From positions 1 to 59,597 of the forward strand of contig JAREWP010000044.1 in NCBI GenBank assembly GCA_029001845.1: DNA of 59,597 bases, given 5' to 3'. The position numbers and the translations under genes were made by a program. Shown here in pieces: positions 20,781 to 54,405 of the stretch. A model generated the notes under the pieces. The model had not been told where the DNA came from and searched no databases. It saw nothing but the letters and a program-made list of their open reading frames with translations. How positions within the stretch are numbered: position 1 is the first letter of the stretch; the number at the start of each line of letters is the position of its first letter. This DNA comes from Candidatus Magnetocorallium paracelense (GTDB taxonomy: Bacteria > Nitrospirota > Thermodesulfovibrionia > Thermodesulfovibrionales > Magnetobacteriaceae).

Positions 20781-20859
20781 TCTGCCACTATTGATAACCG
20801 TGAAAAAACAAATTCTTAACACCTACGTCGATGTTCACTCTTGGTATGAAGGACTTTTT

Positions 20860-23800
20860 ATGATAACATTTACTCAACATTCCTCCAGGAGGTGTTTTAT
20901 ACAATTTCCGTCATTCAAGCACTTCATCTGTTTGACACTCTTTCTGTATCTATGGGTTATGACTTTTCCTGTAACTGCACAAGAGCTCGGAAGCACAGTC
21001 GAACTGACAGCAGAGGAACGGGCCTTCATCCACACCCACCCAGTGATTCAGGTCCACAACGAGACCGACTGGCCGCCCTTCAACTTCGCGGAAGACGGCC
21101 GGCCCAAAGGGTTCTCCATTGATTTCATGAATCTGCTGGCGAAGAAGACCGGCCTGAAAGTTGATTATATCACCGGCCCCTCATGGAACGAATTCCTGGA
21201 GATGATGAAAACCGGTGATCTCGACGTCATGCTGAACATCGTCAAAACACCGGACCGCCAAAAGTACCTGCTCTACACACCGCCTATCGCCGACAACCCG
21301 AACACCATCCTGAGTCGGAGGGACACTCCCTATCACAGCCTGGATGAGCTTTTCGACAAAACCGTGTCCGTGCCCAAGGGGTTCTTCTACGAAGAAGTCC
21401 TTAAGCGCGATTTCCCGCAAATCAAGATCCTGGCGTTGAAAGACACCATCGATACCATGAAAGCAGTGAGCTTCGGCAAGGCCGACGCAGCATTGGGAGA
21501 GCTTGCGGTATTCAATCATCTTCTCGCTCAACACATGATGACCAATTTGACTGTATCTGGCGAAGTAAAGGTGGGCGATCACGAACTTAGCATCCTCAAT
21601 ATCGCGACTCGCAAGGACCTTCCGGTACTTGCTTCCATCCTGACTAAGGGTGTGAAAGCCATCGGCATTGAGGAACGACGGGAGATCCAGCGCAAGTGGC
21701 TTGAAATTACCCCTGCCCCCGTAAAAACCCGTAAGGTTGTCGAACTTTCCGACGAGGAAAGGGCTTGGCTGGCCAAACACAAAACGATCCGACTTGGCGT
21801 TGATCCCAGTTTTCCGCCCTTTGATTTTATTGACAAAAACGGTAACCACGCCGGCATGGGGGCTGACTACATGACACTTGTTGCCGAGCGTTTGGGCGTC
21901 AGCGTGAAACCGGTTCCGAATTTAAGCTGGTCCCAGGTACTGGAGGGAGCGAGAAGAAAGGAGATCGATCTCCTTCCTGTGGCCGGCGCATCGGAAGACC
22001 GTCGTTCCTATTTGGATTTCACGGATCCGTACATTCTGATGCCGCTGGTCATCGTGACCCGTAAGGAACATCCGCCTGTGAGCGGACTAAAGGATTTCGC
22101 CGGGAAGTCCATGGTCATGACCAAGGGCTACTACTACATCGACGAACTAACCCGCCTCTTTCCTGACATCAAGCCGGTCATGCTGAACACCCCGATGGAT
22201 GGTTTACGGGCTGTATCCACCGGCAAGCAGGACGCCGTGGTAGTGAATCTCGGTGTCGGCTATCACCTTATCCAAGAGGCCGGTCTCCTCAACCTGCGGG
22301 TGGCGGCGGAGGCGGAATTAACAATAGCCGCTATTAGCATGGGAGTGCGCAAGGACTGGCCGGAATTTACCGCCATCCTGAACAAGACCATCGATTCCAT
22401 TACTCAAGAGGAACACAAGGCCATCCGCGGCAAGTGGATTGCCGTTGAGGGTGAAATTCAGAAACGACGGACCGTGACACTCACCGCTGAAGAACGGGCT
22501 TGGCTTGCAAAACACAATACCATTCGATTAGGGGTTGATCACGAATATCCTCCCTTCGAATTCATCGCCGAAGATGGAATATATTCCGGCATGGCCTCGG
22601 ACTACGTCCGGCTGATAAGCGAGAGGCTCGGCGTCACCATGAATGTAGTTCCCGGTCTTACATGGGATGAAGTCTTAAAGAGCGCCAGAAACCTTACCTT
22701 GGATGTTCTGCCGGCAGCGGCTGTCTCACCTGAACGTATGGAGTATTTGAACTTTTCCAACGCTTACATGGAGTTTCCCGTTGTCATCGTGACACGGGAC
22801 GATTATCCCTTAGTTGCCGGATTGAACGACCTGAACGGCAAGATCGCCGCCCAGACCAAGGGATACGCAGTTACGAAACACATCGAGAAAAATTACCCCG
22901 AAATAACCCGCCACTTAGTCGACGGTCCGTTGGAAGCGCTCCGGTCTGTATCCGGGGGAAGAACCGAAGCAGCTGTGTTGAATCTCGCAGTCGCCACCTA
23001 TCTCATCAAGAAGCACATTCTTACAAACCTGAAGGTGGCGGCGCCCACTGACTTTGAGATTCCCGGCCTTGCTTTTGCAGTGCGCAAAGACTGGCCGGAA
23101 ATGGTGGGAATTATCAACAAGGCGTTGGCTTCCATAACCGCCGAGGAAAAGGCGGCGATCCGCTCTAAGTGGGTATCAGTGGAGTACCAGGCCGGAATCG
23201 ATGTCAAACTGGCTCTGCAGGTGAGCGGCGTGGCCGTCGTTATTCTAATCGTTATCGTAATCTGGAATCGACGCCTGCAGCGAGAAGTCAAACAAAGGAA
23301 AATCGCAGAACACAACATGGAGACAGCAAAAAACAAAGCGGAACAACTAACTCAGGCCAAGTCGGAATTTGTCGCCGTGATCAGCCACGAGGTGCGCACT
23401 CCCATGAACGGCGTTCTAGGAATGGCTCGCCTGCTGGAAGAGATGGAACTGACCAAAGAGCAAAAGGAGTGCGTGAATACTATCGTCAGCTCCGGCGAGA
23501 CCTTGTTGACCATCATTGATGACCTGCTGGACCTTTCTAAACTGGATGCCGGCAAACTTGAGATCGAACGGTTTCCCTTTGTCCCTGCTGATATGGTCGA
23601 GCAGACCATTGCTCTGATGAAGTCCCGCGCCGACGATAAGGGGCTGACCTTTAAAAGCATCAACGATTCCCGGATTCCTGCAGTCGTTGTCGGCGACTCC
23701 CACCGAGTCCGCCAAATCATCCTCAATCTGATCAGCAACGCCATCAAGTTCACTGATGATGGTTCAGTGACGATCGAGGCCAAGATGGAATCACAAACGG

Positions 23801-24906
23801 ACGAGACGGTATTGTTGTCCTTCACAGTCAAAGATACAGGAAGGGGCATTGCCCCTGACGCCCTAGACAAACTCTTCCACACCTATAGCCAGGGCTCGGC
23901 TGAGGTAGCGCGGAGGTACGGGGGGACCGGCCTGGGTCTTGCCATTTGCCGCCGCCTGGCCGACTTAATGGGAGGTAAAATCAGCGTGGAGAGCATCGTC
24001 GGGGTGGGAAGCTCTTTTCGCTTTGAGACCACTTTTGGCATCGACCAGACGACAGACGCAGCTTCGCTCAGGATAGCGATAAGCGCACCGGCGCCGGTGA
24101 AGAAGCAGGCAGCCCGACCTCTCCGTGTGCTGCAGGTGGAAGACAACAAGATTAACCGTAATGTCATTGAACGTATCCTGTCCCATGTCGGCCACACAGT
24201 GATCAGCGTCACGAACGGAGCCGATGCCCTGAAGGCTGTCCGGTTCGAAGAATTCGATATTGTTTTAATGGACCGCCACATGCCTGTCATGGATGGTATT
24301 GAAACAACGCATCGCATCCGCGCGATGGAGGGAACGATAGCCTCGATCCCAATAATCGGTATCACTGCCAGCGCAGCCCCAAGCGAGATTGACGCCTGCA
24401 TTGAGGCAGGCATGGACGACTGTCTCTCCAAACCGGTAGAGGCAGTACGACTAAGGGCGCTCCTGGAGGACTTATCCCTGGGTAACAAGCCCCACAGACA
24501 GATGCGACCGGTTACGAAGGACTACGCTTCTACAGTATCTGCCAAACCCGACGGATCGCCGATCGACCTGTCCACTCTCTCTAAAATCCTTGACGAGGAC
24601 AACTTGGACGAACTATTCTTGGTGCTTGACCTGTTTAGAGAGGAATTCCCGTCTCTGCTCGCCAACCTGGAAGCGGCGAACCGTGAACGTAATGTACAGT
24701 CAGTACACGATTGCGCCCATGCGGCAAAAGGTGCTGCGCGCAGCGCCGGCGCACTGTGGCTGGCAAGCACGCTGGAACATATGGAAAAGGAAGCCCACAT
24801 GGCGGACTGGAAGACAATAGAGAAACGTCTCGAAGAGGTAAAAACAGAACAGACCAGGATCGACCGTTTCTGTAATGAACGTAAAGGGAAAGAGAACTCG
24901 ACATGA
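20860..24906 (+). CDS. BvgS-like hybrid histidine kinase with three tandem periplasmic SBP_bac_3 domains
   Basis: With the ATG at 20860 (SD GAAGGA, spacing 7; better than the upstream TTG 20791 or GTG 20800) this has 1,348 residues. A signal peptide (about 1-43) is followed by three solute-binding domains beginning near 47, 300 and 545. Each is introduced by a repeated linker of the type TAEERAWLAKH-x-TIRLGVD. A membrane helix (about 780-804) precedes HisKA with His843 (ISHEVRTPMNG), a HATPase with DTGRGI and GTGLGLAI, a receiver with Asp1138 (LMDRHMPVMDG) and an Hpt domain with His1287 (HAAKGAARSAG). The His-Asp-His chain can pass phosphate to a separate receiver, best placed being the CPBP fusion upstream. 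GC content is visibly above that of its neighbours. Confidence 0.93.
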   Translation: MITFTQHSSRRCFIQFPSFKHFICLTLFLYLWVMTFPVTAQELGSTVELTAEERAFIHTHPVIQVHNETDWPPFNFAEDGRPKGFSIDFMNLLAKKTGLKVDYITGPSWNEFLEMMKTGDLDVMLNIVKTPDRQKYLLYTPPIADNPNTILSRRDTPYHSLDELFDKTVSVPKGFFYEEVLKRDFPQIKILALKDTIDTMKAVSFGKADAALGELAVFNHLLAQHMMTNLTVSGEVKVGDHELSILNIATRKDLPVLASILTKGVKAIGIEERREIQRKWLEITPAPVKTRKVVELSDEERAWLAKHKTIRLGVDPSFPPFDFIDKNGNHAGMGADYMTLVAERLGVSVKPVPNLSWSQVLEGARRKEIDLLPVAGASEDRRSYLDFTDPYILMPLVIVTRKEHPPVSGLKDFAGKSMVMTKGYYYIDELTRLFPDIKPVMLNTPMDGLRAVSTGKQDAVVVNLGVGYHLIQEAGLLNLRVAAEAELTIAAISMGVRKDWPEFTAILNKTIDSITQEEHKAIRGKWIAVEGEIQKRRTVTLTAEERAWLAKHNTIRLGVDHEYPPFEFIAEDGIYSGMASDYVRLISERLGVTMNVVPGLTWDEVLKSARNLTLDVLPAAAVSPERMEYLNFSNAYMEFPVVIVTRDDYPLVAGLNDLNGKIAAQTKGYAVTKHIEKNYPEITRHLVDGPLEALRSVSGGRTEAAVLNLAVATYLIKKHILTNLKVAAPTDFEIPGLAFAVRKDWPEMVGIINKALASITAEEKAAIRSKWVSVEYQAGIDVKLALQVSGVAVVILIVIVIWNRRLQREVKQRKIAEHNMETAKNKAEQLTQAKSEFVAVISHEVRTPMNGVLGMARLLEEMELTKEQKECVNTIVSSGETLLTIIDDLLDLSKLDAGKLEIERFPFVPADMVEQTIALMKSRADDKGLTFKSINDSRIPAVVVGDSHRVRQIILNLISNAIKFTDDGSVTIEAKMESQTDETVLLSFTVKDTGRGIAPDALDKLFHTYSQGSAEVARRYGGTGLGLAICRRLADLMGGKISVESIVGVGSSFRFETTFGIDQTTDAASLRIAISAPAPVKKQAARPLRVLQVEDNKINRNVIERILSHVGHTVISVTNGADALKAVRFEEFDIVLMDRHMPVMDGIETTHRIRAMEGTIASIPIIGITASAAPSEIDACIEAGMDDCLSKPVEAVRLRALLEDLSLGNKPHRQMRPVTKDYASTVSAKPDGSPIDLSTLSKILDEDNLDELFLVLDLFREEFPSLLANLEAANRERNVQSVHDCAHAAKGAARSAGALWLASTLEHMEKEAHMADWKTIEKRLEEVKTEQTRIDRFCNERKGKENST

Positions 24907-25998
24907 TGGAGGATATCCTCAAATCAGACAAAATGTTTTGATGATCAAACAGAAATCAGTTGTCCCGAATCGGGAGAAAATTTTTTTGGACAAGACGCCC
25001 AATACACAGGCATAAAACCTTCCTATACAGACAATGGCGACGGCACGATTACTGACAACATTACAGACTTGATGTGGATTCAGGATGCAGGAGAAAAAAC
25101 AAACTATGATGACGCCATCGCTGGTGTGAGCTCTTTTAAGTTTGCCGGTTATGACGATTGGAGAGTACCGACAATAAAAGAGTTATACACTCTAATCGAT
25201 TTCAACGGACTCGATCCGGATACCGGTGCTGACGACAGCTCGCACCTGATTCCCTTTATTGATGACAATGCTTTTGTATTCAAATACGGTGACACCTCTG
25301 CAGGAGAGAGAATCATCGATTCGCAGTGGATTACAAGTAACATCTATGAATCTTTTGTTATGGGAGGTGAAGAGTGTTTCTTTGGTGTTAATTTCGCTGA
25401 TGGAAGAATAAAGTGTTATCCCACATCAAATAGAAGTTCAGAAGCTTATTTTATCAGATACGTAAGAGGCGCTTCATATGGTGAAAACATTTTTGTGGAT
25501 CATGACGATAGTACGATAACAGATGCTTCCACAGGATTGATGTGGCAGCAAAGCGACACTTCTGAAGGCATGGAATGGGATGTGGCATTACGTTATTGCG
25601 AAAATTCAGATTTAGCCGGTTACGATGACTGGCGTCTTCCAAATGCCAAAGAATTGCAATACATTGTGGATTATACCAGAAGTCCGGATACAACGGATTC
25701 AGCGGCAATCAACTCTCTTTTCGAAGTAAGTGAAATTGTCAATGAAGCCGAAGATAAGGATTATCCCTTTTACTGGACAAGTACTACTCACGAGAGCACA
25801 AGAGGCGGTATGAATGCCGCATACATCTCATTTGGAAGAGCTTTGGGATATTTTAACAATGAGTGGATGGATGTTCACGGCGCCGGCGCTCAAAGATCGG
25901 ATCCGAAATCGGGTGATTCAGACGATTACCCCTCATACAGAGGGCCCCAGGGAGATGTCAGCAGAGTCTTTAATTATGCCCGATGTGTACGAGGGTAA
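24907..25998 (+). CDS. DUF1566 / Lcl_C domain protein, 5'-truncated
   Basis: The reading frame is open from the codon after the kinase stop to 25998. It holds two tandem DUF1566 (Lcl C-terminal-type) repeats: KCFDDQTEISCP, GQDAQYTG, YTDNGDGTITDN and LMWIQDAG, then YDDWRVPTIKELYTLID; the second has STGLMWQQSD and YDDWRLPNAKELQYIVDYTRS. Family members are exported adhesin-like proteins with a signal peptide and a YxxVDTGQ-type lead just before KCFDDQT. Here that N-terminus is missing: the homology starts within about ten codons of the kinase stop. The only in-frame starts are internal (TTG 25069), so this is probably a decapitated gene. Confidence 0.8.
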   Translation, partial: WRISSNQTKCFDDQTEISCPESGENFFGQDAQYTGIKPSYTDNGDGTITDNITDLMWIQDAGEKTNYDDAIAGVSSFKFAGYDDWRVPTIKELYTLIDFNGLDPDTGADDSSHLIPFIDDNAFVFKYGDTSAGERIIDSQWITSNIYESFVMGGEECFFGVNFADGRIKCYPTSNRSSEAYFIRYVRGASYGENIFVDHDDSTITDASTGLMWQQSDTSEGMEWDVALRYCENSDLAGYDDWRLPNAKELQYIVDYTRSPDTTDSAAINSLFEVSEIVNEAEDKDYPFYWTSTTHESTRGGMNAAYISFGRALGYFNNEWMDVHGAGAQRSDPKSGDSDDYPSYRGPQGDVSRVFNYARCVRG

Positions 25999-53467: not shown

Positions 53468-53609
53468 TATATGATACATTTTTGTATCATACTGAGGCAG
53501 ACATAGAGTAATTATGCCGCGACGCGCAGGATTAGATAATGAGACTGAAAATCTGCTTGAAAAATCATCCGCCCTGCCTGTAACCGGCAAGAGTAATATT
53601 ATTAAATAA
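53468..53609 (+). other. Hairpin and 31-codon open frame, possible transposase remnant
   Basis: TATGATACA and TGTATCATA form a hairpin at about 53469-53492. Just after it an ATG at 53514 begins MPRRAGLDNETENLLEK, reading to a stop at 53609. The MPRRA-x-LD opening recalls the N-terminus of REP-associated (Y1-type) transposases, but nothing else of that family follows. Probably decayed. The remainder of 53341-53628 has no gene; a GGAG SD precedes the next ATG. Confidence 0.3.
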
Positions 53610-53628
53610 ATATTTATAAGGAGTCAAC

Positions 53629-54405
53629 ATGCTAACTGAAAAACTCAAAGAATTATTCAAAAAAAGCAACCTTACGACTCCTGACGAGTTAAAAGAAGGC
53701 GTTAACAAAGCTTATTCATCTGCAGCCAAATCACCCAAATCGCAAAGTCTTTTTCCGGTCGGGCGAAAGTTCGCCGAAAGTATTGGATACAGCGCTAACC
53801 TGCTTGACACGGTTCCCGAAGGCTCCGTGGAGTCCTTTGCAGGAGTTTCCAATGTTTCCGTATTCGCCGAAATAGAGGAGAGCGCCATTGTACTGGACAT
53901 AGGCTGCGGCGCCGGACTTGACTCGATAATAGCTTCACGAAAAACAGGTGTTTCAGGCAAAGTAACAGGCGTGGATTTCAGTTGCGAGATGATAGAGAGG
54001 GCAAGGAATTCCATAAAGGAGGCCAACATCTCAAATATTGAGTTTTTTTGTTCCGATGCAGAGACCATTCCTTTGGAAAATGAATCGGTGAATGTTATTC
54101 TTGCAAACGGAATATTCAATTTAAACCCGAATCGTGAAAAAATTTTCTCTGAAATGGCTCGCGTGCTTTGCAACAATGGAGTTGTCTTTGCATCTGAGCT
54201 TATACTTAAAGGACCGGCTCGCTCTGAAACTGTATGCAGCCTTAATAACTGGTTTGCCTGAATTGCCGGAGCAAAGGACGGGGTCGCCTTCCTTGAAGAA
54301 TTCAGAGCTGTTGGTTTTACAGAAGCAAGGATTTTAAGAACATATACAAATGACAGAGTTAAAAATAAAAAGATAACAGGCGCTGATGTATATGCAAAAA
54401 AGTAA
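53629..54405 (+). CDS. SAM-dependent methyltransferase, ArsM-like, probable selenoprotein (TGA at codon 211)
   Basis: A TGA at 54259-54261 stops the frame at 210 residues, but the frame stays open and homologous after it for 47 codons to a TAA at 54405. The class-I methyltransferase domain shows VLDIGCGAGLDS, VTGVDFSCEMI, SDAETIPL and NGIFNLNPNREKIFSEMARVL. At the TGA the context is NNWFA-(TGA)-IAGAKDGVAFLEEF, matching the ArsM-type W-x-x-C-I-x-G-A segment where a catalytic cysteine normally sits. The TGA is followed by a SECIS-like hairpin (54274-54294). Selenocysteine is therefore the best reading. The ArsM Cys174-equivalent is glycine here, so the substrate need not be arsenic. Confidence 0.85.
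54274..54294 (+). promoter_or_regulatory. Candidate bacterial SECIS element
   Basis: AAGGA (54274-54278), a C:U mismatch, GG, the 5-nt apical loop GGUCG, CC, then UCCUU (54290-54294). The loop begins 21 nt after the TGA and starts with GG, within the 16-37 nt range and G-first rule described for bacterial SECIS hairpins read by SelB. The hairpin is inside the coding region, as usual in bacteria. Confidence 0.7.

Follow-up and report, generated by a model that had tools for sequence, protein, structure and literature searches.

An ArsM-like gene with an in-frame TGA

The window, which is the whole stretch of 59,597 nucleotides analysed here, is contig C37 of a genome of 6.0 Mb that is assembled in 103 contigs and is 99.6% complete. 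On its forward strand it contains an ArsM-like methyltransferase gene (53629–54405), which encodes 258 residues with Pfam methyltransferase domains when an in-frame TGA is read through. A ribosome-binding site (AAGGAG, 53618–53623) is located 5 nt 5' of the ATG. The TGA, codon 211 (54259–54261), is the only one in the open reading frame, which continues for 47 codons beyond it and ends in a TAA stop codon (54403–54405). These coordinates, the codon number and the length of the downstream stretch are as stated in the original prediction, which read the TGA as a selenocysteine (Sec) codon.

The neighbouring genes in the window encode a XerC/D-type recombinase, HD-GYP-like and GGDEF-like proteins, and an AmmeMemoRadiSam radical SAM enzyme; neither a metal link nor arsenic genes were found among these neighbours. 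About 140 bp upstream of the gene there is a perfect palindrome, TATGATACA-TTTT-TGTATCATA (53470–53491), followed by a 31-codon ORF (MPRRAGLDNETENLLEKSS...). The two are possibly an operator and the remnant of another gene. The palindrome is absent upstream of the orthologs, and we have rejected it as a shared operator. Elsewhere in the window, a 1371-codon ORF (20791–24906) ends in TGA (24904–24906), and its frame stays open for 363 codons more, into the ORF at 25069–25998. The joining sequence has no Sec-like context, and the open frame probably reflects chance.

Conservation and decoding of the TGA

The same lineage is present in six further genomes of the same phylum, with 49–56% identity, and the TGA is found at the same codon in all six. 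Besides the window gene, the lineage comprises five complete genes (G001, G005, G010, G011 and G119; 52–56% identical to the window protein) and a sixth, G207, that is split over contigs. A search for related loci with the single protein yielded one true relative (G005) and one unrelated methyltransferase, and the ArsM proteins in plasmid records are only 30–35% identical to the window protein.

Over the 46 codons that follow the TGA, the seven sequences share 55% protein identity, with identities of 0.69, 0.67 and 0.35 at codon positions 1, 2 and 3, respectively. Codon pairs that specify the same amino acid differ by a synonymous change in 60% of cases. These 7 x 46 codons contain no in-frame stop, whereas 13 stops occur in one of the alternative frames and 20 in the other. 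Because the protein is conserved (55%) while the third codon positions drift (35%), these comparisons provide strong evidence that the stretch 3' of the TGA is translated and under strong purifying selection.

The machinery for Sec incorporation is complete in the genome, with a tRNA-Sec (74.6 bits, anticodon TCA) and with selA (613 bits), selB (363 bits) and selD (338 bits; L020, G000:C50:17721–18650), all four over their cut-offs. The selD gene has an in-frame TGA of its own at the usual Sec position (C-G-U-A-A-K), which is an internal control for Sec decoding.

In more distant relatives position 211 is occupied by TGA or by a Cys codon, and the Sec/Cys column is invariant across the family. 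Nineteen sequences are Cys forms; the nearest of them, L053, belongs to another family of the phylum and branches as the sister of the Sec lineage (support 100/98). On a tree of 48 sequences, at least four changes between Sec and Cys have taken place. A separate observation concerns related Nitrospirota ArsM-like genes in which another in-frame TGA lies close to the N-terminus (L032, L033, L034, L035, L037, L038, L042, L057, L060, L065, L082 and L084). The second TGA is embedded in a conserved motif, for example S-U-P-P-S-G-G-A-G-G-C, and is often followed by a strong hairpin; these genes seem to encode double selenoproteins that stand alone and carry the additional Sec in a short tail.

Downstream of the UGA, a SECIS-type hairpin is formed by positions 54274–54294 (21 nt, -8.1 kcal/mol). 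It comprises 8 bp and a bulged C, and its GUCG loop (54283–54286) begins 21 nt after the UGA. This best fold is the hairpin of the original prediction, where it was drawn with a C.U mismatch and a GGUCG loop. The hairpin satisfies a published bacterial SECIS model (loop of 3–9 nt, G in the first two loop positions, spacing of 16–37 nt, at most -7.5 kcal/mol; PMC13188914), which we applied with our own script and not with bSECISearch. Among synonymous recodings of the window sequence 27 of 100 pass the model as well, and relative to such recodings the hairpin has z = -1.1 (p = 0.15). The proposed SECIS-like fold is present, but taken alone it is weak evidence, no more than chance, and it becomes convincing only through comparison across relatives. 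The model is passed by 26 of 30 UGA genes and by 5 of 19 Cys homologues, and the mean hairpin z is -1.71 for the former and +0.50 for the latter; since the sequences are kin, P-values for these two comparisons are too small, but their direction is clear. One of the seven lineage members, G010, fails the model. With the helix at one place across the lineage, 90% of the cells are paired, versus 45–63% with one side slid (seven sequences only), and changes on both sides occur at two pairs. A search with Rfam SECIS_1 gave no match in the genome, and none in any of the control genomes either, which makes this negative uninformative.

On the basis of these comparisons, the window gene almost certainly encodes a selenoprotein. 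It is very improbable that the TGA is a true stop, which would imply that the 210-residue product works, that the gene has decayed to a pseudogene, or that the TGA is a sequencing error. Such a reading would fit the weakness of the window hairpin when taken alone, and most of the methyltransferase fold would be kept in a 210-residue product. Against it stand the TGA common to seven genomes, the purifying selection and the lack of in-frame stops after it, the Sec machinery and the invariant Sec/Cys column. An assembly or sequencing error at 54259–54261 is ruled out, since six other genomes have this TGA too, and the homologues continue past residue 210, where a true stop might have been expected to end them. 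Even more remote is a reassignment of TGA, or its read-through with insertion of some other amino acid, for instance tryptophan. We found nothing in its favour: TGA terminates 11 of 35 window genes and is thus not a reassigned codon, and the homologues have Cys, never Trp. Sec at codon 211, as the original prediction had it, is backed by the shared TGA, the Cys homologues and the genes selA, selB, selD and tRNA-Sec, any lack of which would have spoken against it. The continued homology after the TGA was correctly recognized, and the Cys-equivalent position is confirmed by the sequences of solved ArsM structures as well as by the Cys homologues. The W-x-x-C context that was proposed for this position is not general, as in canonical ArsM proteins the usual context is Y-x-x-C or Y-x-x-U.

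Fold and arsenic-site residues

ArsM enzymes bind As(III) through cysteines and methylate it with SAM. In the algal enzyme CmArsM, we take the arsenic-binding cysteines to be Cys72, Cys174 and Cys224, of which Cys224 is the last.

The AlphaFold2 model of the window protein (mean pLDDT 90) has the same fold as the algal arsenite methyltransferases CmArsM and CrArsM (4fr0, 5evj), which rank first among the fold matches (Z 24.9, rmsd 1.9, 200–203 residues; best other fold match 20.7). In the alignment Sec211 takes the position of Cys224. Sequence identity is 26–28%, and the algal enzymes have three cysteines and an extra C-terminal part that is absent from the window protein. The cysteines equivalent to Cys72 and Cys174 are lost, with Val at codon 73 (53845–53847) and Gly at codon 161 (54109–54111), respectively. 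Two or three conserved arsenic-binding cysteines are therefore not found in the window protein, in which only the Cys224 equivalent is left, as Sec211. Gly in place of Cys174 marks a sub-branch of 26 sequences, which is split from the Cys174-type ArsM proteins with support of 100/99. In four Nitrospirota ArsM-like proteins (L055, L056, L058 and L064) Cys takes the place of Sec and Gly that of the middle arsenic cysteine; they represent a Cys version of this reduced site.

Codon 203 (54235–54237), 8 residues before Sec211, encodes a Cys that is invariant in the six full-length lineage members. In the partial G207 the Cys is located three residues earlier, showing that the position is not strictly fixed, and we have rejected Cys203 as a universal partner of the Sec.

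The best-scoring NCBIfam models are ArsM/AhpD (NF041537, 183.8 bits), ArsM/DUF2284 (NF041536, 172 bits) and methyltransferase/UXPK-star (NF047649, 163 bits), and all scores are below cut-off. The match to NF041537, which has a cut-off of 510 bits, covers positions 12–229 of 345; the window gene ends at 258 residues and is not a member. The designation 'ArsM-like' should not be taken to mean a demonstrated arsenite methyltransferase, because two of the three arsenic cysteines are absent. With confidence barely below that in its being a selenoprotein, we classify the window protein as a stand-alone selenoprotein within the ArsM-like branch of the SAM-dependent methyltransferases.

Relation to known selenoproteins and possible function

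Arsenite methyltransferases with Sec have been on record since 2007 (Fomenko 2007; GOS selenoproteome 2008) and are catalogued with the motif UxxG, and the caution of the original prediction against claiming a new family was right. In these proteins (PRK11873/NF008823, for example WP_011987699.1), as in the window protein, Sec replaces the same last cysteine and is followed by x-x-G. In contrast to them, the window protein lacks the other two ArsM cysteines, and with 159.8 bits it does not reach the curated family score of 263 bits. The selenoproteins described by NF041537, NF041536 and NF047649, the methyltransferase part of which is the best-scoring model for the window protein, all have UxxG as well, but join the methyltransferase to a second domain that carries Sec, whereas the window protein is stand-alone and has one Sec. 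Sec in ArsM-type methyltransferases is thus already known, and the window gene adds one more member to them, divergent and stand-alone. It is distinctive in belonging to a stand-alone lineage that is without two of the ArsM cysteines (V73, G161), has kept the third as Sec211, and has a conserved Cys203 of its own.

We propose that SelB carrying Sec-tRNA(Sec) would decode UGA 211, guided by the hairpin just 3' of it. Sec211 occupies the place of the last arsenic-binding cysteine of ArsM, as the alignment shows and in agreement with the predicted fold, and would serve as a selenolate ligand or nucleophile beside SAM. Most likely the selenolate binds a soft metal(loid), with As(III) as the first candidate, and brings it up to the SAM methyl group. 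Cys203, a possible partner of Sec211, or an outside thiol may keep the Sec reduced.

The genomic context in the relatives bears on the substrate. In G001 and G010 the lineage gene directly adjoins an ArsR/SmtB gene, and in G119 it lies beside a gene for a heavy-metal P-type ATPase; a gene neighbourhood common to all lineage members was not found. Elsewhere in the window genome, the ArsR proteins of G001 and G010 find only a weak counterpart. A link to metal(loid)s is thus supported by the gene context in these three relatives, and not by the neighbours in the window. Methylation of a metal(loid) by the window protein appears somewhat more likely than not, while for arsenite in particular we would put the chance at slightly under even.

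The substrate of the selenoprotein may instead not be arsenic. The lineage may have moved to another soft element, such as Sb, Hg, Se or Te, or else to a small molecule or an organic thiol, and Sec would then act as nucleophile or redox residue; we regard this as a nearly even possibility. The loss of the Cys72 and Cys174 equivalents in the lineage, the latter being Gly in all 26 members of the sub-branch, points in this direction, as do the P-type ATPase in one relative and the lack of adjoining arsenic genes in the window; the ArsR/SmtB regulators in two relatives point away from it. Also against it is TtArsM from Thermus thermophilus, which methylates arsenite with a single conserved cysteine (PMC8649762), so that the loss of two cysteines leaves arsenite possible. 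TtArsM resembles the window protein in this single-cysteine working. It is, however, distant from other ArsM proteins and without Sec; its sole Cys is Cys77, and histidines have been proposed as further ligands. More tentatively, we speculate that Sec, perhaps with Cys203, has replaced the multi-cysteine arsenic site, either for metal(loid) methylation by one selenolate or for an undescribed substrate.

Under standard annotation the gene would be truncated to 210 residues, and the actual enzyme would be overlooked. Reading through the TGA extends the known selenoprotein methyltransferases by a lineage that stands alone. This lineage also offers a natural example of an ArsM arsenic site from which nothing but the Sec remains, and so makes it testable whether one selenolate can stand in for two or three cysteines.
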